A DNA stretch of 41,765 bases, from NCBI RefSeq assembly GCF_900002405.1, contig NZ_LK995524.1, positions 1 to 41,765 on the forward strand, read 5' to 3'. This DNA is from Actinomyces succiniciruminis (lineage in GTDB: Bacteria; Actinomycetota; Actinomycetes; Actinomycetales; Actinomycetaceae). Positions 4,503 through 41,765 of this stretch are shown piece after piece. The notes under the pieces were generated by a model. That model ran no database searches. It saw only the letters and a program-made list of their open reading frames with translations, and was not told where the DNA came from. Position numbers and translations under genes: made by a program. The stretch's first letter is position 1. Each line of letters opens with the position of its first letter.

Positions 4503-5111
4503 CTACTCGGCCGCGGGCGGCTCGGGCGCCTCCGACGGCTTCTCCTCGGCCGCGGGGGTCGGCTCGTCGGTGGAGTCGGCCCAGTACTCCTCGGCCCAGG
4601 GGTCTTCCACGGGCTGGCTGCGGCGCCAGACCACGTAGGCGGCGCCCGCGGCGCAGCCGGCGACGGCGAGCCAGCAGAACGTCTTGAGAACGGGGTGCTT
4701 CTTCTTCACTGGTACCTCCGGTGTCAGCGCCGCTTCCTTGGCGGCGACGGCGATGCGCTGGGCGCGCTCGGTCAGCGTGCCCTCGGTGTTGGCGGCCTCC
4801 TGGGCGGCTAGGGCGGCGCGCTGGGCGGCGGGGACGTACTCCTCGATCACCCGCACGCGAGCGCCCTCGGCGGCGCGCTGGGCGGCGGGAACATATTCCT
4901 CCACCACCCGGGTGCGCGCCTCCTCGACGACCGGCTGCGCGCGCAACTGCGCCTCCTTGGCGGCCTTGACGAACTCCTCCCGGGCGCGGTTGACGCGAGG
5001 CGCCGCCCAGCCGGCGGCACGGCCGGCCTGAGCCGCCAGGCTGTCCGCGAGCGTGGTCGCCTCCTGGCGGGCCTGATCGAGGTCGATCTTCTTGTCGAGG
5101 ATGTAAGCCAT
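4503..5111 (-). CDS. Alanine-rich helical protein with a C-terminal membrane span, unknown function
   Basis: 202 residues, MAYILDKKID at the start. Residues 10-130 are Ala/Glu/Arg-rich and predicted helical or coiled-coil, with a duplicated unit: R-V-V/I-EEYVPAAQRAA at 68-81 and 87-100, 19 residues apart. A hydrophobic span at about 140-162 follows a KKK cluster, and the last 40 residues are acidic and Pro-rich (DPWAEEYW, then PTPAAEEKPSEAPEP). The ATG is preceded by AGGGAG. The likely layout is a cytoplasmic helical N-terminus on a tail or bitopic anchor; topology is inferred. It diverges from ppiA across 147 bp. I recognise no named family and assign no function. A longer reading of this frame through ppiA is an antisense shadow. 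Confidence 0.85.
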   Translation of the reverse strand: MAYILDKKIDLDQARQEATTLADSLAAQAGRAAGWAAPRVNRAREEFVKAAKEAQLRAQPVVEEARTRVVEEYVPAAQRAAEGARVRVIEEYVPAAQRAALAAQEAANTEGTLTERAQRIAVAAKEAALTPEVPVKKKHPVLKTFCWLAVAGCAAGAAYVVWRRSQPVEDPWAEEYWADSTDEPTPAAEEKPSEAPEPPAAE

Positions 5112-5134
5112 TTCGGTCTCCCTGCTCGGAACGA

Positions 5135-5151
5135 TGAGGTGGTTCACCTCA
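5135..5151. promoter_or_regulatory. Perfect inverted repeat, candidate operator between divergent genes
   Basis: TGAGGTG (5135-5141), GTT, CACCTCA (5145-5151) is a perfect 7-bp inverted repeat. It lies 24 bases upstream of the minus-strand start at 5111. A -10-like TACAGT occurs just upstream on that strand (5159-5164), so a protein bound here would block transcription of the helical protein gene. The regulator is unknown. Confidence 0.35.
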
Positions 5152-5258
5152 ATGGTGGCACTGTAACGCAGGTCGCACCCACGAAGCTGGGTGCCGTTCT
5201 GCCTGGGGTGAACACCGGGTCCCGGGATCCTCCCGCTCTCCCGTGCGACGATGCGGGC

Positions 5259-5792
5259 ATGGAAGCGACCATCGAAGCGACACTCCACACCAACCTCGGC
5301 GACATCCGACTCGAGCTGTACCCCGAGCAGGCGCCGCAGACCGTCTCCAACTTTGTTGGCCTGGCCACCGGTGAGAAGACCTGGACCGACCCGCGCACCG
5401 GCGCGCAGTCCAACGCCCCGCTGTACGAGGGCGTCGTCTTCCACCGAGTGATCCCCGGTTTCATGATCCAGGGCGGCGACCCGCTGGGCACCGGCACGGG
5501 CGGCCCCGGCTACGTCTTCGATGACGAGATCGACCCCTCGCTGACCTTCGCCGCCCCCTACGTCCTGGCCATGGCCAACGCCGGCCGGCGCCTGGGCAAG
5601 GGCACCAACGGCTCCCAGTTCTTCATCACCACCGCCCCCACCGAGTGGCTGCAGGGCAAGCACACGATCTTCGGCGCCGTGGCCGACGACGCCTCCCGCC
5701 GGGTCGTGGACGCCATCTCGGCCGTGCCCACGGACCCGCGCGACCGTCCGCTTCAGGACGTGGTTATCACCTCCGTCACCATTCAGCGGTGA
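5259..5792 (+). CDS. ppiA: Peptidyl-prolyl cis-trans isomerase, cyclophilin type
   Basis: Cytoplasmic protein-folding enzyme that speeds cis-trans rotation of Xaa-Pro bonds. The cyclophilin core is complete: FHRVIPGFMIQGGD with catalytic Arg, Phe and Gln, then GTNGSQFFITT, then the active-site Trp in WLQGKHTIFG. No signal peptide is seen. Length is 177 residues, typical for actinobacterial PpiA, whose gene lies close to gyrA and the tRNAs in mycobacteria as it does here. I chose the ATG at 5259 because the open frame upstream encodes no cyclophilin sequence. No clear ribosome site precedes it, so a leaderless or short-leader transcript is possible. Confidence 0.95.
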   Translation: MEATIEATLHTNLGDIRLELYPEQAPQTVSNFVGLATGEKTWTDPRTGAQSNAPLYEGVVFHRVIPGFMIQGGDPLGTGTGGPGYVFDDEIDPSLTFAAPYVLAMANAGRRLGKGTNGSQFFITTAPTEWLQGKHTIFGAVADDASRRVVDAISAVPTDPRDRPLQDVVITSVTIQR

Positions 5793-5826
5793 GGCGGGTC
5801 CAGCGTCGTCGAGACGGGAGCGATTC

Positions 5827-6663
5827 ATGACCGATTCGAACCCGCAGGTCGGCGCCCCTCCCGTCTGCCCGCGGCACCCGGATCGGGTGGCCTATGTGCG
5901 CTGTCAGCGCTGCGGCCGCCCGGCGTGCCCTGAGTGCCAAGTACCCAGCGCCGTCGGCATCCACTGCGTGGACTGCGCCCGCCGGTCCAGTTCCGGTCGT
6001 CGCGGCGTTCGCACCGCCCTGGGCGGCCGCCCGGTGGCCGACGCGTTGGTGACCAAAATCCTGGTGGGCGCCTGCGTGATCGTGTACGTGGGGCAGCTGG
6101 TCTACCCGGCAATCACCGGCTGGTTCGACTTCGTGCCCGCACTCGCGGCGACTCAACCGTGGCGCTTCCTGTCCACGGCCCTGCTTCACGGTTCGCTGGC
6201 ACACCTTGGCCTGAACATGTGGGCACTGTGGGTGCTCGGCAATACCCTCGAGCCGCTGCTGGGGCGCTGGAGATTCATCTGCCTGACTGCCCTGAGTGCG
6301 CTCGGCGGCTCGACGGCGATCTACTGGCTGGCATCACCGAACTCGACATCGTGGATCTCCGGGACAGTGGGTGCGTCCGGCGCCATCTTCGGGCTGTTCG
6401 CGGCCGTATTCGTCATCCAGCGGCGCTTCGGGCGCGATACTTCGACCATCGTGGGCCTGCTCGTGATCAATGTGTTGATCTCGGTGCTGGGAACCAACAT
6501 CTCCTGGCAGGGACACCTGGGCGGTTTTCTCACCGGCCTGCTCCTGGCCGCGATCTACGCCTGGGCGCCGCGGGAGCGCCGCACCGCCGTGGGCGCGTGG
6601 GGGACCGTCGGCGTGGCCGTGCTCCTGGTGGCCCTGGCCGCCGCCCGCATTCTCCTGGTGTAG
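5827..6663 (+). CDS. Rhomboid family intramembrane serine protease with N-terminal zinc-binding segment
   Basis: Cleaves transmembrane substrates inside the lipid bilayer. The rhomboid domain shows HGSLAHLGLN, the catalytic Ser184 in GASGAIFG, and catalytic His230 in WQGHLGGF, with about six membrane spans between residues 74 and 278. The first 55 residues carry Cys14, His17, Cys26, Cys29, Cys34, Cys37, His46, Cys47 and Cys50, a B-box-like zinc-binding pattern found on many actinobacterial rhomboids. The ATG follows ppiA by 34 bp with GGGAG upstream, so it may be co-transcribed with ppiA. Substrate unknown. Downstream lies a long gene-free repeat region. Confidence 0.93.
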   Translation: MTDSNPQVGAPPVCPRHPDRVAYVRCQRCGRPACPECQVPSAVGIHCVDCARRSSSGRRGVRTALGGRPVADALVTKILVGACVIVYVGQLVYPAITGWFDFVPALAATQPWRFLSTALLHGSLAHLGLNMWALWVLGNTLEPLLGRWRFICLTALSALGGSTAIYWLASPNSTSWISGTVGASGAIFGLFAAVFVIQRRFGRDTSTIVGLLVINVLISVLGTNISWQGHLGGFLTGLLLAAIYAWAPRERRTAVGAWGTVGVAVLLVALAAARILLV

Positions 6664-6970
6664 TCGCAAGACCAGCCGCCGACCCGCGCCCCTGCGGACA
6701 CCTGGTAACCCAGACCCGGATGCCGTTCCAGCTGGTGCAGGCTCTCGGGCCCCTGGTCGTTGCTCGGCACCACCTCGGCACCTCTACGGCGTCATCACAC
6801 GTACGAGTTCCCGCCCCACGTACGCGTAGCTGTTCCGGCATCGGCGCAAGGGCCCGGTCCACCGCCATCCCGCGTAGCTGTTCGTACTTGTGGGTGCGGC
6901 GGGTTGGGCGCGGCTGGTGGTGTGGTGGTCGTGTTAGGGGCTCTGTTTGACGAGAACCGGCCCGCCAGGT

Positions 6971-7084
6971 GGTCGTTTTCGGGTTGGCGAGGTCGTGTTC
7001 GGACGCGGGAGGTCGTTGTCGGGCTGGAAAAGCCGTGTTTGGGAGGTCGTTGTCGGGCGTATGAGGTCGTGTTCGGCGGGTGCC
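6971..7084 (+). repeat. Repeat block A: GGTCGT(T/G)NTCGG units spaced 20 bp
   Basis: Units beginning GGTCGT start at 6971, 6991, 7011, 7045 and 7065. A degenerate unit (AGCCGTGTTT) starts at 7031, exactly 20 bp after the third. Each unit continues as G/T-rich sequence with TCGG at the same offset and then a variable half. A related GGTCGTGTTA lies at 6927. The plus strand is strongly G+T-rich across the block. Confidence 0.75.
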
Positions 7085-7093
7085 GGTTTGCCG

Positions 7094-7158
7094 AAAACGT
7101 CCTCGTCGGCCCGAAACCCTCCACATTCGGGAGGGTTTCGGGCTGATGAGGACGTTTT
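7094..7158. repeat. 29-bp inverted repeat forming a very long hairpin
   Basis: Bases 7094-7122 pair with 7130-7158 over 29 positions: 27 Watson-Crick pairs and two G-T pairs, with a 7-base loop ACATTCG. The arms contain AAAACGTCCTCG and GAGGACGTTTT, and an inner CCCGAAACCCTCC. A second, shorter stem with the same core follows: GAGGACGTTC (7166-7175) with GAACGTCCTC (7188-7197). It lies about 430 bp past the rhomboid stop. A terminator, a processed RNA or a cruciform are all possible. Confidence 0.7.
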
Positions 7159-7226
7159 GGCCGATGAGGACGTTCTCGGGCCAGCGGGAACGTCCTCGGG
7201 CCGGCGGAGGGCGGCGTCGGGGAGCG

Positions 7227-7359
7227 GACGGTTCGTGTGTTCCGGTGACGGTTCGTCAGGTAGCAGCAACGGTTCGGCATGGACGGCGACGGTTCGTACA
7301 CCTACCCCACGAACCGTCGCAAGAAGTGCCGAATCTTCGACCGCAACGTACGAACCGTC
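7227..7359. repeat. Repeat block B: ACGGTTCGT units at 20-21 bp spacing with inverted partners
   Basis: ACGGTTCG(T/G) starts at 7228, 7248, 7269 and 7289. The reverse form ACGAACCGT starts at 7309 and 7350, with a degenerate copy near 7329. The units at 7286-7297 and 7309-7320 make a perfect 12-bp inverted repeat with an 11-base loop. Spacings of 20, 21, 20, 20, about 20 and 21 bp keep all cores on one face of the helix. Confidence 0.7.
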
Positions 7360-7501
7360 ACCCATCCGCACACGAACAGCCCGTCTTTGGAGTATTCCGG
7401 ATGCTGAGTACGGGGACCGCCGCAAAACGCGTACGTAAGAGATGAACGCATGTATAGGGGACGGGCTCGTGCCCGAATGAGCGCCTGCACCGCCGATCGC
7501 A

Positions 7502-7676
7502 TTTTCCACACCCGAACTCATCGCTGTGGATTCTGGGGAAGCACATCCCTGTCATTCCTCCACACCTGTGGACACTCCTGGGGAAACACACCGATGTGGT
7601 TCTCCACAGAGTTGCGCACAGCTGGGGATGATGCCGCCAGATGCGCATACTTCCGCCGAAAAGCCGGTCATCCACA
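7502..7676. repeat. Repeat block C: TCCACA/TGTGGA elements resembling DnaA boxes
   Basis: Four 9-mers differ by one base from an accepted DnaA box (TTATCCACA or TTGTCCACA): TTTTCCACA 7502-7510, TGTGGACAC 7567-7575 on the other strand, TTCTCCACA 7600-7608 and TCATCCACA 7668-7676. A weaker TGTGGATTC is at 7525. CTGGGGA recurs at 7533, 7578 and 7622, giving a rough 44-45 bp tandem period. Binding of DnaA is an inference. Confidence 0.5.
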
Positions 7677-7910
7677 CCGTGGGGAGTGTTCCGGTTCCGA
7701 CCTGTGCACGCGAATCGGCACCGCCTGTGGAGCAGCACTCACACGCCGAACGGCATCACGGCCCGCAGTGGATTCTGGCCAGCCACGCCCGAAACCATCG
7801 ACGCGGCGTTTCCGACTTGAGGGTCGCGGCGGGTACCGCGCGAGGTCGTGGCTAGGCGCGAGAGGAGATCTTCGGGCGGACTGACGCTCATCTCGCCCCC
7901 TATGTACTCC

Positions 7911-8014
7911 GCACGACCTCGGGCCGCGTTCCACGACCTTAGTGTGTGTTGCACGACCACCCCCGGGTCGTGCAACACACACCGAGGTCGTGCAGTGTCG
8001 CCCAGGGTCGTGCA
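7911..8014. repeat. Repeat block D: three GCACGACC and three GGTCGTGC sites, mirrored, 20 bp apart
   Basis: GCACGACC starts at 7911 and 7951, with a CCACGACC at 7931. GGTCGTGC starts at 7966, 7986 and 8006. Each trio is spaced exactly 20 bp. The inner pair is the core of a perfect 17-bp inverted repeat, 7942-7958 with 7966-7982, and a 7-base spacer. The array lies downstream of the DUF4342 gene. Confidence 0.75.
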
Positions 8015-8061
8015 AAGGCACCGCCTCCGCACGCCGCCGGGCTAAAGCACACGTCCGCGAA

Positions 8062-8147
8062 GATTTCGGGCGCACCAGGACGGTTTCGGCAAACGCCGGT
8101 CGTACTCAGGCCGATGGGGTCGTACTCGCGCCGATCGGGTCGGTGCC
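8062..8147 (+). repeat. Repeat block E/F: TTCGG pair and GTCGTACTC units at 20 bp
   Basis: GATTTCGGG at 8062 and GGTTTCGGC at 8082 are 20 bp apart. GTCGTACTC starts at 8099 and 8119, with a degenerate GTCGGTGCC at 8139, again 20 bp apart. The first two 20-base units of this set agree at 17 positions. The block ends about 80 bp before the DUF4342 stop. Confidence 0.65.
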
Positions 8148-8226
8148 GGACCGACAGCGCGCGATCCGCCCGCGGCCTTTCCAGGGTGCGCGCCCGCGGG
8201 CCAATCGACACCGCTGCGGCGGGTAT

Positions 8227-8616
8227 CTACACCTCCGGGTCAGGGCTCGACGGCGGCGGCGTGCCGTCCTCGGACTCATTCACACCGTCGACGTCGGTGC
8301 GCTCCACCTCCAGGGTGACCTCGGCGACCATGGCGGCGATGACGCCGATGGCGGCGAGAACCGGCGCCGCCAGCACCGTGATACCGCCGACCACCGCGCT
8401 GGCCGTCAGGGGCACGCTGAGGAACTCTCTGCCGGAGGAGTCGCGCAGGATCACCCGGCGGACGTTCCCGTCTGCCACGAGCTGCTTGATGGTGGCGATC
8501 AACTGGTCACCGGCCACGGTAATCCAGTCGACGACGGTGCGCGGTGCGCCGCCCGCCGAATCCGGACCGGGGTTGTGGTTGGTACCGGAGGAGAACCCAT
8601 GAGAATCTGTGCTCAT
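8227..8616 (-). CDS. DUF4342 domain protein
   Basis: 129 residues with a DUF4342-like core: VVDWITVAGDQLIATIKQLV, then GNVRRVILRDSSGREFLSVPL, then a hydrophobic stretch of about 30 residues (VVGGITVLAAPVLAAIGVIA) and an acidic tail. The N-terminal 25 residues are polar and probably disordered. DUF4342 proteins have no settled function; I can only say that it looks membrane-associated. The ATG at 8616 has no strong ribosome site. It sits alone, with repeat block D on its 3-prime side and a partial copy of the same repeat on its 5-prime side. Confidence 0.8.
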   Translation of the reverse strand: MSTDSHGFSSGTNHNPGPDSAGGAPRTVVDWITVAGDQLIATIKQLVADGNVRRVILRDSSGREFLSVPLTASAVVGGITVLAAPVLAAIGVIAAMVAEVTLEVERTDVDGVNESEDGTPPPSSPDPEV

Positions 8617-8680
8617 GCCTCAAGTCTGACGCGACCGAAGCGCCGGCACCATGGGGAAGCGCCCTGATTCATCCCCGAGC

Positions 8681-8712
8681 ACCCCCGGGGTCGTGCAATA
8701 TCACCGAGGTTC
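8681..8712 (+). repeat. Second, partial copy of repeat block D upstream of the DUF4342 gene
   Basis: The stretch beginning ACCCCCGGGGTCGTGCAA and ending ACCGAGGT closely repeats 7959-7989, with one extra G and a short difference before ACCGAGGT. It is in the same orientation, so near-identical direct repeats flank the DUF4342 gene 0.7 kb apart. Confidence 0.6.
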
Positions 8713-8783
8713 GCCGCCGGACACGCCGTTAACAGTGTCCCGGGGTATCGCCGGTCCCGATGTGCTCGGCCGGGAGGAATGAG

Positions 8784-8856
8784 TGGAGCCAACGGGACTC
8801 GAACCCGTAACCCCCTGCTTGCAAAGCAGGTGCGCTACCAATTGCGCCATGGCCCC
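8784..8856 (-). tRNA. tRNA-Ala (anticodon TGC)
   Basis: A 73-base cloverleaf on the minus strand. The acceptor arms GGGGCCA and TGGCTCC pair with one G-U, followed by discriminator A. The anticodon stem-loop CCTGC-TTTGCAA-GCAGG carries TGC, and the T arm has GGTTCGAGTCC. CCA is not encoded. The position next to tRNA-Ile and gyrA is the standard actinobacterial arrangement. Confidence 0.96.
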
Positions 8857-8859
8857 CGG

Positions 8860-8994
8860 TCATGCGATGGGGTCGGTGACCTCCGCCCAGGCGGCCCGCT
8901 CCGCGCGGTTGGCCGCCAGCTTCAGCCAGGCGGCGTAGCCGGCCACCCCGAGGCATGAAAAAACCGCGGCCAGTACGAGCGTTCGGCTCTTCAT
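8860..8994 (-). CDS. DLW-39 family small protein (44 aa)
   Basis: A 44-residue protein between the two tRNA genes: MKSRTLVLAAVFSCLG, a hydrophobic N-terminal half, then AANRAERAAWAEVTDPIA. A strong GAGGAGG at 8999-9005 precedes the ATG. Size, place between tRNA-Ile and tRNA-Ala near gyrA, and the ending W-A-E-x-T-D-P match the actinobacterial DLW-39 proteins, which usually end DLWAEATDP. Here the namesake DLW reads AAW. The function is unknown; the hydrophobic start suggests a membrane-anchored peptide. The stop lies 3 bases from the mature tRNA-Ala 5-prime end, so the mRNA may be cut when the tRNA is processed. Confidence 0.85.
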   Translation of the reverse strand: MKSRTLVLAAVFSCLGVAGYAAWLKLAANRAERAAWAEVTDPIA

Positions 8995-9023
8995 GAAGCC
9001 TCCTCACGTTCCACCGCGGGCGG

Positions 9024-9097
9024 TGGGCCTAGCTGGACTTGAACCAGCGACCTCATCCTTATCAGGGATGCGCTCTAACCAACTGAGCTATAGGCCC
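9024..9097 (-). tRNA. tRNA-Ile (anticodon GAT)
   Basis: A 74-base cloverleaf on the minus strand. GGGCCTA pairs with TAGGCCC and is followed by A. The D arm has AGCTCAGTTGGTTAGAGC, the anticodon loop CTGATAA carries GAT, and the T arm has GGTTCAAGTCC. No encoded CCA. It lies 50 bases past the DUF3566 stop and is probably read with it or from its own promoter. Confidence 0.96.
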
Positions 9098-9147
9098 TTG
9101 CGACGCGGAAGAGACTAACCTACCGAGTCGCCAGCATCCAAATGCGA

Positions 9148-9647
9148 TCACTCATCTGCGAGTGTGAGATGAACCCCACCGACGAGCGCGGCCGTGATGT
9201 TGTACAGGAACGCGCCGATCGTGGCCAGCGCGGTCGTCAGGATGATGTTGACGACGGCGATGACGGTGGCCATGGAGATGGCCCGGGAGAACTTCATGTA
9301 CTCCAGCAGCGCCGAGTAGGCGTTGTAGCTCGAGTCCATGATGGTGCTCAGCAGGTCTTGGATGGTGGAGAACACGTGCATGGCGTCCAACATGAACCAC
9401 ACGAAGGCGGCGGCCACCACCAGCATGATGCCGGCCGCAACACTCAGCAGGAAGGACGCCTTCATCACCGACCACGGGTCGATGCGGGTCAGGGCGAGCC
9501 GCACACGGCGCGGCCCCGCAATGGTCTTGGCGGCCGGCTTGGGCTGATTGGGGCTCTGCTGGCTCGCGGCGGGGGCGGCCGGCTCGGGCGCGGCCGCGGG
9601 GGACTGTGTCGGTCCGCCCGTGGCGGGCGGGAAGGACTCCGGCTGAC

Positions 9648-9651
<4 letters not shown>
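9148..9651 (-). CDS. DUF3566 membrane protein
   Basis: 167 residues: an Ala/Pro/Gln-rich N-terminus of about 45 residues, then [23 protein letters not shown], which marks DUF3566, and two or more membrane spans (about 65-90 and 125-155). The start ATG overlaps the gyrA stop as ATGA, so translation is coupled to gyrA. The gyrB-gyrA-DUF3566-tRNA order is conserved across actinobacteria. The exact function is not established. The C-terminus ends LTLADE. Confidence 0.92.
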
Positions 9652-12287
<2,636 letters not shown>

Positions 12288-40441: not shown

Positions 40442-40468
40442 TCCACTAGCTGGAGGGTGCGCTCTCTT

Positions 40469-40526
40469 CGTCTGCAACGTCTTCCCCGTTAACGACGTCT
40501 GCAACGCCTCTTCCCCGTTAACAACG
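40469..40526 (+). repeat. Tandem repeat of about 29-31 bp
   Basis: CGTCTGCAACG, then TCTTCCCCGTTAAC and ACG, occurs at 40469-40497 and again at 40496-40526 with a 2-base insert (CC) and one substitution. Each unit ends with GTTAAC plus A/G-ACG. Confidence 0.75.
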
Positions 40527-40589
40527 CTACTTAACGTTCTGCTGAAGGCCTCGGAGGTATACAGCAGACGGTTAACTGGCGTTGTTAAC
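40517..40589. repeat. 28-bp inverted repeat rich in GTTAAC
   Basis: Bases 40517-40544 and the reverse complement of 40562-40589 agree at 24 of 28 positions, with a 17-base spacer. The outer ends GTTAACAACG/CGTTGTTAAC and the inner ends TCTGCTG/CAGCAGA are perfect. It could be a terminator, a dimer operator array or the remains of a small mobile element. Confidence 0.7.
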
Positions 40590-40802
40590 CCCGAACCGGC
40601 GTAATAGACGGGCTTGTGAGTGCCCTTGTCCGCAACTGGGCTGACTATTGGTGCCGTGTGTGTGGCGCTCGACCGGGCCACCCCCTGGTCAGCGCCGTCA
40701 TGACATCTCACCGGCGTCCACAGGTGGCGTTCGCGACACCCCAATCCACAGAGATCGCGGGGCGCGGTGGCGCCGCCGTCGGGCCGCGGCGATTCTGCTG
40801 AC

Positions 40803-41765
40803 ATGCAGCGCTACCCGACCCCGCCGGAACGTCCCCGCATGTTGTTCACCGCCGACCGCTCCAACGGAGACCTGGCCGGTCGGCGCGATCTCATACGGGT
40901 GGCGCATGGCAGCTACATGTTCATTCCCGACCGGGATACGCCGACCTGGCGCCTGAAGGAACTCGTCACCCTGGCGCGCTGCGAGGCGGCGCTGCGAGCC
41001 TCGCCGTCGGCAATTGCCCTGACTCACGAGGCGGCGGCGGTGGTGCTGGGGCTGCCTGTCTTAGAGTCCGAGCCCTGCATCCGCCTGGCGGTGCCCGGGA
41101 ACCGATCGCGCAGCACCATCGTTTTCCCAACGGTCAGGTACGGGCCGCCGGAGGGCCGACGTCATGGTCGGTCGGTGACGCTGTTGCGTTCGACGACCGC
41201 GCCGGCGCCGGAGGAGGTCGTCAACGTGGGCGGGTTGCGGGTGACGACGCCGCTGCGCACCGCCATGGACTGCGCCTTCGACCTGCCGGTGCGCGAGTCG
41301 TTGCCGGTGGTGGACGCCGCGCTGCGGGCGGTGTGCCGTCCCGACCGCTTCAACCGACGCTGCTACGGGGAGATGGAGATCGACGCGGCGCGCGAGCGGT
41401 TGATGCGCATGGTGGAGAGCCAGGGGCGCCGTCACGGCAAGCGTCGTGCCAGGGTGGCGGTGGCGCTGGCGGATCCCTTCGCGGAGTCGCCGGGCGAGAG
41501 CGTGCTGCGCTGGGCGGTCGGTGTTGCCGGGGTGGCCGAACCGGTGACGCAGCGGCGCTGGATCGGCGACGATGCGCACGAGTACTTCCTCGACGTCGCC
41601 GTGGACAGTGCCATGGTGGACCTGGAGTTCGACGGCTACGGCAAGCTGGCGACGTCGGCGGACGTGCGCGCGGAGAAGCAGCGGGAGATGGTGCTGCGGC
41701 GTGGCGGGTGGGCGGTGCACCGCTTCGAGTGGCGGGAGTTGGCCGATCCCGAGCGGTTGGTGCGG
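40803..41765 (+). CDS. AbiEi/DUF559-like protein with PD-(D/E)XK endonuclease-type C-terminus (partial, 3-prime end missing)
   Basis: 321 residues are visible and the frame is open at the window end. The first half (DLIRVAHGSYMFIP, then SPSAIALTHEAAAVVLGLP and LRVTTPLRTAMDCA) resembles AbiEi-type antitoxin-like proteins of actinobacteria. The last 100 residues fit a Vsr/DUF559 PD-(D/E)XK fold: Glu228 in ESPGES, Asp264 in FLDVAV, Glu275 and Asp277 in DLEFDGYGK, then KQREMVLRRGGWAVHRF. Such paralogs are common in actinobacteria and their role is unproven; nuclease activity is an inference. The ATG has no ribosome site, and the frame stays open upstream, so the start is uncertain. Confidence 0.8.
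   Translation, partial: MQRYPTPPERPRMLFTADRSNGDLAGRRDLIRVAHGSYMFIPDRDTPTWRLKELVTLARCEAALRASPSAIALTHEAAAVVLGLPVLESEPCIRLAVPGNRSRSTIVFPTVRYGPPEGRRHGRSVTLLRSTTAPAPEEVVNVGGLRVTTPLRTAMDCAFDLPVRESLPVVDAALRAVCRPDRFNRRCYGEMEIDAARERLMRMVESQGRRHGKRRARVAVALADPFAESPGESVLRWAVGVAGVAEPVTQRRWIGDDAHEYFLDVAVDSAMVDLEFDGYGKLATSADVRAEKQREMVLRRGGWAVHRFEWRELADPERLVR

Follow-up and report, generated by a model that had tools for sequence, protein, structure and literature searches.

Repeat arrays phased at about 20 bp in an intergenic stretch of Actinomyces succiniciruminis and their putative partnership with a family of solitary nucleases

The ends of the transposons Tn7 and Tn5090/Tn402 carry arrayed direct sites of about 20 bp, i.e. 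about two helical turns, at each end, and the two ends are mutually inverted. Another type of pairing between an enzyme and repeats is the REPtron, in which a solitary and mostly single-copy enzyme gene lies beside palindromic repeats, cognate copies are found between genes genome-wide, and the presence of the enzyme goes with the abundance of the repeats (PMC8266576). AbiEi and Rv2827c are known to bind 23-bp repeats that neighbour one another, and AbiEi antitoxins are reported to autoregulate and to bind, as monomers, the 23-bp inverted repeats of their own promoters (PMC7319586). Here we analysed a DNA stretch of 41,765 nucleotides from Actinomyces succiniciruminis (contig NZ_LK995524.1, hereafter the window), which contains a gene-free region first annotated as a mosaic of unrelated short repeats with a common 20-bp phase. 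On balance, this region is probably a nest of recognition arrays of a family of solitary nucleases, in a partnership resembling that of repetitive extragenic palindromic (REP) sequences with RAYT proteins, the nuclease reading phased double-stranded sites.

The phase of the repeats greatly exceeds that of shuffled sequences of the same dinucleotide content. Between positions 6664 and 8226, exact 7-mers recur at lag 20 in 25 cases (mean 0.18, maximum 4 in 300 dinucleotide shuffles) and exact 8-mers in 15 (shuffle mean 0.03, maximum 2), the highest counts at any lag in any shuffle being 7 and 9. A chance origin of the phased cores was therefore rejected. So was a coding repeat, already considered unlikely in the initial annotation, by the pitch of 20 and the absence of any called gene from the stretch, which is flanked by convergent rhomboid and DUF4342 genes (genes were called with a codon-usage script written for this analysis). 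The stretch is a nest of elements of one kind, in which direct cores of about 8 bp at a pitch of 19-21 bp face inverted copies. Two families, which were traced beyond the window and are dispersed genome-wide, are represented as follows:

7911..8013, no strand assigned: GGTCGTG element of 3+3 copies, CACGACC at 7912, 7932 and 7952 facing GGTCGTG at 7966, 7986 and 8006 (20-bp pitch, inner core starts 14 bp apart)
7228..7358, no strand assigned: CGGTTCG array, ACGGTTCG at 7228, 7248, 7269 and 7289 facing CGAACCGT at 7310 and 7351

The cores first listed were thus largely recovered. GGTCGTK was confirmed letter by letter at 6971, 6991, 7011, 7045 and 7065, as was GGTCGTGC at 7966, 7986 and 8006. 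The four copies of ACGGTTCG also stood, with steps of 20, 21 and 20 bp, their reverse copies lying one base away from the positions originally given. The third core holds as CACGACC at the three positions above, the copy placed at 7931 reading CCACGACC and not GCACGACC, and GTCGTACTC is present at 8099 and 8119, position 8139 reading GTCGGTGCC, which makes two copies and not three. The layout, described as direct repeats, is mostly one of facing arms, the pitch is 19-21 bp rather than strictly 20 bp, and 20 bp is slightly below the proposed two helical turns (10.5-bp B-DNA).

In 47,313 bases of intergenic stretches from the same genome (G000; 3.33 Mb, 90 contigs), half of them picked around matches, the 7-mer lags peak at 20 (238), 23 (110), 40 (98) and 19 (78); in coding sequence they peak at multiples of 3. 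After masking of GGTCGTG in the seven unselected stretches of 20 kb, lag 20 was not raised (5) and lags 19, 22 and 60 were raised weakly (17, 19 and 18), which indicates that the arrays are scattered and not everywhere. The second peak, at 23 bp, corresponds to the 110 intergenic 7-mer pairs, and 101 pairs were counted in the hit-centred stretches L009-L019.

Genome searches with the inner 2+2 pattern of the GGTCGTG element (up to 3 mismatches; no match for the reversed-pattern control) gave 28 matches in A. succiniciruminis, 30 in A. glycerinitolerans, 22 in A. ruminicola and 25 in A. ruminis, and none in the whole genomes of A. bowdenii and A. timonensis. None of the 23 distinct A. succiniciruminis elements examined lies within a called gene. 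The consensus of 180 units from 45 elements consists of a near-invariant GGTCGTG followed by a looser stretch. For the spacing we relied on loci fetched by protein alone, which avoid the bias that searching with spaced cores introduces: same-strand GGTCGTG neighbours no more than 100 bp away are 20 bp apart in 30/39 cases, 19 bp in 8/39 and 40 bp in 1/39, facing cores are 14 bp apart in 11/12 and 34 bp in 1/12, and CGAACCGT neighbours are spaced by 20 bp in 12/34, 21 bp in 3/34 and 41 bp in 19/34. The pattern-fetched loci, which carry that bias, gave 20 bp in 71/90, 19 bp in 10 and 21 bp in 1 for GGTCGTG, and 20 bp in 67/118, 21 bp in 21, 41 bp in 28 and 19 bp in 2 for CGAACCGT. Whole units have been gained or lost among the GGTCGTG elements, 4+3 and 3+4 copies occurring besides 3+3, which lends some support to the initial suggestion that units of about 20 bp are copied. 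A search without preset cores retrieved the same layout with CGACGGTT, GAGGACGT, AACCGTCG, CGGTCCGA and TTTGGACC, the last two at 19 bp; the detector also listed CGCCGGCG and CCGCCCCG, which resemble plain GC-rich sequence.

Two other repeats were seen by eye in these stretches. A short repeat, ACGTTCGCGCCGATAACCC, lies with its variants beside several GGTCGTG elements at a spacing of about 31-32 bp (L013 5972-6080; flanks of L015, L017 and L018), and a unit of about 60 bp (L019 6927-6993) has more tandem copies in A. glycerinitolerans than in A. succiniciruminis.

At locus L009 of the A. succiniciruminis genome, a single gene (7297-8412) is bracketed by GGTCGTG elements at 6967-7093 and 8473-8597. 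Its product of 371 amino acids has weak Pfam matches near its C-terminus to RAP, MTES_1575 and DUF559, all below the cut-offs, and PADLOC matches to AbiEi in the middle of the protein. Searching with this protein gave 38 matches, fragments included, in 6/6 Actinomyces genomes. The members measure about 330-370 amino acids and combine an AbiEi-like region, for which DNA binding is predicted, with a C-terminal Vsr/DUF559-like PD-(D/E)XK region; D272, E283, D285 and K289, residues of the PD-(D/E)XK kind, are invariant in 17/17 members. Among these 17, the PADLOC AbiEi models match up to 13 (best E 1e-7), and Pfam matches at E <= 0.01 include MTES_1575 (11/17), DUF559 (7/17), RAP and AbiEi_1 (1/17). 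The PF04480 cut-off was passed by three places in the A. succiniciruminis genome, the GGTCGTG-flanked member being below every cut-off. The best profile matches in the PDB were the endonuclease-like protein 3hrl (E 0.002) and, without significance, an Integrator subunit (E 0.26) and the mobile intron protein 3r3p (E 0.57), which we take to be linked to the EDxHD homing enzymes. The protein assignments thus consist of weak profile matches and conserved motifs. The family profile matches 111/148 genomes of the class, A. succiniciruminis included, many of the matches covering the C-terminal half only.

The nuclease gene appears to be solitary and stationary. No toxin, transposase or AbiEii nucleotidyltransferase was found among the nine neighbours of five nuclease loci (E <= 1e-5), which are housekeeping, enzyme, membrane or regulatory genes. 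The 4.1 kb around the L009 gene align at 88-97% to G162, G176 and G187 (G162, G180 and G181 were inferred from identical places to be G001, G002 and G005, respectively).

Phased arrays are found on both sides of many nuclease loci, and their core depends on the nuclease clade. Left and right flanks share at least 10 ten-mers at 23/29 nuclease loci, orthologs included, versus 6/125 control genes (one further locus could not be scored), and a later set gave 14/16; a threshold of 5 ten-mers fails to discriminate, with 23/29 loci versus 59/125 controls and 251/812 swapped pairs, orthologs included. When a single core with at least 4 phased links in total and at least 1 on each side was sought, 28/50 loci of the genus had one, whereas any of 20 shuffles reached 4 links in 4/50, and pitches of 10-14, 26-30 and 32-36 did so in 4, 2 and 2 of 50. 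When 7-mer lags were summed over the flanking sequence of 48 loci, the highest counts fell at 20 (429), 41 (184), 21 (151), 40 (93) and 19 (89), the other lags from 8 to 44 giving 2-55, and the best lag is 19-21 in 24/48 nuclease loci versus 9/81 control genes. In the class as a whole, 12/27 loci share at least 10 twelve-mers between their flanks in one orientation, versus 0/27 with the right flank reversed (two of 29 loci were dropped for overlapping flanks).

The orthologs with at least 80% identity to the L009 nuclease (L062-L065, L143 and L145) have GGTCGTG as their common core, and a 60% homolog (L066) has AATGCGAG. CGGTTCGT is likewise the common core of the orthologs that are at least 76% identical to the L090 nuclease, and the CGGTTCG family flanks the gene on both sides in six genomes (L221-L226). 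Among ten homologs with 40-45% identity (L227-L236), two-sided cores are GGGCGTG-like at L227 and L228, GAGGTC at 20-bp pitch at L232, CGAGMTCG at L234 and GCGTCCTC at L235, the last array flanking the paralog L078/L235. Clear arrays on one side occur at L230 (TGAACGCG) and L236 (ACGTACCT); L229, L231 and L233 have no such array, the flanks of L231 nevertheless sharing 72 ten-mers. By eye, a looser GGTCGTK-related array borders the decayed paralogs L069/L070 on one side, and L081, L083 and L085, which are among the loci without the required phased links, are instead flanked on both sides by a long palindrome. A partner nuclease clade is thus firmly established for the CGGTTCG and GGTCGTG sets of the window, and we would read its GGTCGTK set as linked to L232 and its ACGTCCTC set to L235. 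The initial suggestion of one constraint on spacing, possibly set by a protein, gains support from a nuclease family of which many members are flanked by phased cores of their own, which the nucleases would bind.

Inverted repeats were also seen by eye at some loci of the class. At L122 and L123, perfect inverted repeats of 49-55 bp lie beside CCTCGTGA units pitched at 20 bp. The homologous nuclease gene in other families of the class (L122, L123, L134 and L139) is bounded by perfect inverted repeats of 31-55 bp, and ATGATCAYGTT occurs in or beside them.

The distribution of the cores follows that of the nucleases within the genus. The GGTCGTG element is present in 7/49 genomes, of which 6 contain a nuclease of at least 80% identity, and CGAACCGT arrays (triples) are present in 7/49, of which 6 contain a nuclease of at least 76% identity; neither nuclease occurs elsewhere. 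For each family, 6 genomes have both, 1 has arrays only and 42 have neither (Fisher's exact 5e-7 per family, which is no probability of independent association, since the genomes are related).

The arrays also turn over between close species. At the window's site, the rhomboid gene, the block at about 7505-7731 and some or all of the DUF4342 gene are retained in six relatives (G001, G002, G005, G176, G177 and G187); the array blocks 6830-7385 and 7881-8205 have no alignable counterpart in these six. A. ruminicola has instead GACCGCCT (19 bp) and GGGGACGT (20 bp) arrays, G187 an AGGACGTC array and A. ruminis CACGTACG units, and in A. glycerinitolerans the join skips window positions 6816-7496. 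Elsewhere, a palindrome of the L085 family lies in a 132-bp difference, present in A. glycerinitolerans (L051) and absent from the same site in A. succiniciruminis (L013).

According to the reading favoured here, each nuclease would have its own core of about 8 bp, its gene lying between two arrays of that core and other copies between genes elsewhere. Nuclease monomers would bind adjoining units side by side on nearly one face of double-stranded DNA, with the arms facing, and the binding of AbiEi monomers to neighbouring 23-bp repeats, as reported in PMC7319586, makes side-by-side binding at about two turns plausible. Cutting or nicking at the array, followed by repair, might copy the element to new places and add or remove 20-bp units. 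The mosaic in the window could then represent arrays of several such families settling in the same tolerant intergenic space. In its broadest form the proposal is more tentative: Actinomycetes may harbour unrecognised, fast-diversifying two-part elements, in which each AbiEi-Vsr nuclease reads and copies its own facing double-stranded arrays of two-turn pitch, paralogs and cores co-diversifying like RAYTs and REPs with unrelated chemistry and architecture.

Alternatively, the AbiEi-like part may act as a repressor, the arrays at the nuclease gene being autoregulatory operators and the dispersed arrays regulating or insulating other genes, with nuclease activity secondary. The autoregulation of AbiEi antitoxins through 23-bp inverted repeats (PMC7319586), the arrays upstream of nuclease genes and a rigid pitch that fits cooperative binding all agree with such a role. 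However, arrays are also found downstream of nuclease genes, close species differ in array content at the same site, and the nuclease-type residues are invariant. Moreover, of the 23 distinct A. succiniciruminis elements, 10 lie between convergent genes, where no promoter is needed, 8 between tandem and 4 between divergent genes and 1 at an edge. We consider regulation as the main function unlikely.

Less probable still is that the arrays are ordinary palindromic repeats without an enzyme of their own, spread as passengers of miniature inverted-repeat transposable elements (MITEs) of ISL3-like type (ends GGCTCTTCCGGTTT, 8-bp target duplications; ISL3 is the family to which we presume them to belong). 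Three MITEs with matching 8-bp duplications (ACTAAACC, ACATAACC and GCTAATGC) do hold arrays of one or more families, and two array-bearing inserts have an empty counterpart in A. succiniciruminis: a 705-bp MITE of A. glycerinitolerans (L201 879-1583, duplication ACTAAACC; empty at L020) and a 511-bp insert in G176 (L186; empty at L099, alignment overlap 8 bp). An 879-bp MITE in A. glycerinitolerans L220 (duplication GCTAATGC) contains, by eye, a GGTCGTG 3+3 element, a TGGACCG-type array and GGTCGT-type units. Although this L220 element sits in a MITE, facing ends such as those that bound, with 8-bp duplications, the carrier MITEs in L201 and L220 were found around none of the 23 A. succiniciruminis GGTCGTG elements when 1500 bp to either side were searched with as many as 3 mismatches allowed in 14 (more degenerate ends would escape). 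In addition, homology between element pairs from different contexts stops at 104-118 bp in 14/45 pairs. Both observations count against MITEs as the sole route, and passive carriage leaves unexplained the specific core on both sides of paralogous nucleases and the co-occurrence of core and nuclease.

The MITE family as such (ends GGCTCTTCCGGTTTGNGGGTGTGGTG) was seen at L201 879-1583, L201 11623-12180 and L220 9612-10490, with further ends at L205 and L109. The 8-bp duplications match in the first three, not in L205 7393-7900 with the ends chosen.

It is very improbable that the arrays act as hairpins in RNA or single-stranded DNA, e.g. as bidirectional terminators. The arms in the window are 70-93% complementary, and the 10/23 elements in convergent gaps contrast with 3/39 convergent among the gaps of at least 150 bp in the same genome, which would suit terminators, but divergent and tandem gaps contain arrays as well. 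Pairing is about equally good between arms of different elements and between those of the same element: for the inner spacer, it is 0.656 within elements and 0.639 after swapping (172/1000 shuffles as high), and for the outer spacers 0.439 and 0.470. The arm-swap test thus revealed no covariation between arms, a single column pair (33/71) covarying among the 48 looked at, and an RNA stem with compensatory changes, as the elements had suggested at first sight, failed it. What is conserved is therefore the unit itself, in keeping with recognition of double-stranded DNA; this would argue against a single-strand hairpin substrate of the RAYT type. A defence role, with the nuclease directed at foreign or rival DNA and the arrays serving as decoys or as marks or shields of the host chromosome, is likewise very improbable: the AbiEi and restriction-enzyme-like PADLOC matches and the 20-30 scattered GGTCGTG elements per genome with nuclease would agree with it, but the five nuclease loci have no partner gene among nine neighbours, array content varies between close species, and the rest is speculation.

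Several observations weigh against nuclease-read arrays. Two-sided sharing of flanks is missing in 6/29 loci (L067, L069, L070, L071, L074 and L088) and also at L229 and L233, 22/50 loci lack the required phased links, and the 20-bp pitch is not general across the class, the best lag being 19-21 in 7/27 loci with no summed peak. Arrays without nuclease occur in G177 (6 GGTCGTG elements) and G187 (5 CGAACCGT matches), and as the seven genomes may form one clade, the co-occurrence does not represent many independent events. Two of the six CGGTTCGT nucleases (G000 and G181) have an in-frame stop, TGA in both, and the CGGTTCG family may thus be inactive in A. succiniciruminis. The array-bearing MITE inserts indicate that some dispersal needs no nuclease, homology extends beyond the element (127-382 bp) in 31/45 pairs, and a clean empty/filled pair was not found for any GGTCGTG element on its own. 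The single-sequence structure model of the nuclease paralog in the window had a mean predicted local distance difference test score (pLDDT) of 34, too poor for a fold search. Finally, the arrays, their pitch, their position around nuclease genes, the dependence of the core on the clade, the almost complete co-occurrence within one genus and the turnover between species are direct observations, while binding, cutting and dispersal or copying are steps that we infer.

The other repeats of the window and its nuclease paralog are as follows:

6798..6825, plus strand: a pair of CACGTACG units spaced by 20 bp, read by eye as the left arm of an older array, which is also present at this site in A. 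ruminis
6971..7077, plus strand: five GGTCGTKKTCGG units at 6971, 6991, 7011, 7045 and 7065, with a degenerate unit within the 34-bp step
7094..7207, no strand assigned: AACGTCCTC / GAGGACGTT units, arms 7094-7122 and 7130-7158 being 93% complementary, with more copies at 7166 and 7190
7428..7455, minus strand: degenerate right arm of the older array, by eye; 7386-7449 aligns to L031 at 77%
8059..8145, no strand assigned: inverted copy of 7086-7121 (8059-8094, 83%), then GGTCGTACTC at 8098 and 8118, the third unit being degenerate
40462..40622, no strand assigned: GTCTGCAACGCC / GTTAACAACGCC repeats upstream of the window paralog, with a tandem repeat at 40469-40526
40767..41765, plus strand: AbiEi/Vsr-like nuclease paralog truncated by the contig end, 36% identical to the GGTCGTG-flanked nuclease over 40833-41750

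Locus L031 holds a CACGTACG array at the window's site. The family profile matches the window paralog at 40803-41765; by eye, the GTCTGCAACGCC / GTTAACAACGCC repeats lie in the flank of L082, and the paralog L080 has the same repeats. They are likely the own array of the window paralog. The genes of the window include those for the rhomboid protein, DUF4342, gyrA, dnaN and dnaA. The rhomboid is 99% identical to its A. glycerinitolerans counterpart, and the surrounding DNA is about 95-97% identical to that species. Plasmid relatives had no match to the repeat stretch, and Rfam at gathering thresholds returned two tRNAs only for positions 5000-10000, with no structured-RNA match to the arrays.

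Between the arrays, the block 7502-7736 contains DnaA-box-like 9-mers: TTGTCCACA with one mismatch at 7502, 7567 and 7600, and four more with two mismatches. It lies about 10 kb from dnaA and has 7 such sites (up to 2 mismatches) versus 4 in the dnaN-dnaA gap. The block aligns at 75-84% in the six relatives while the neighbouring sequence turns over; 93 bp of it align at 78% in A. bowdenii, and by eye it is present in A. timonensis too. It is possibly a DnaA-binding or origin element.

The initial annotation knew of no described element of this design, and none was found in the open-licence literature, judged by titles and the starts of abstracts; the same search gave no description of these repeats or of a DUF559/Vsr-like nuclease associated with repeats. 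The nuclease genes surrounded by repeat families of their own point to a partnership of repeat and enzyme for which no description was found there. The elements differ from the ends of Tn7 and Tn5090/Tn402 in that only a few bases separate the arms and the neighbours examined include no transposase. A CRISPR array has no support, as the sites reverse direction at the centre and the spacers are semi-conserved (cas genes were not sought). The ISL3-family MITEs carry several arrays and have 8-bp duplications, but arrays also lie outside them, e.g. around nuclease genes. The nucleases share PD-(D/E)XK-type residues with Vsr-like/DUF559 endonucleases and EDxHD homing endonucleases; a homing endonuclease gene interrupts its own recognition site, and theirs lies between two arrays and not inside a host gene, target gene or intron. 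With the AbiE type IV toxin-antitoxin systems they have in common an AbiEi-like region in up to 13/17 members, but a nuclease region is present, the arrays are both-sided and dispersed, and no AbiEii toxin gene occurs among the nine neighbours at the five loci examined.

The differences from the REP/RAYT system concern chemistry and architecture. No match to the Pfam HuH (Y1) transposase family TnpA-REP was found in the 17 members (E <= 0.01), and GTAG or CTAC occurs in 1/45 distinct GGTCGTG elements (103 bp each). A REP consists of GTAG before a palindrome of 20-50 nt, whereas the elements here have multi-unit phased arms of about 60-130 bp and show no sign of selection on a single-strand stem. 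The likeness to REPtrons lies in a stationary, single-copy enzyme, in a partner gene bordered by repeats that recur genome-wide, and in their correlated presence, in two families and in related genomes. No assigned role was found for these solitary proteins, and pairing each with a readable target array would supply one. If the proposed partnership is correct, it would provide natural pairs of DNA-binding proteins and cores, usable for decoding specificity, and would constitute, beside REP/RAYT, a second independent case of a stationary enzyme with genome-wide cognate repeats.

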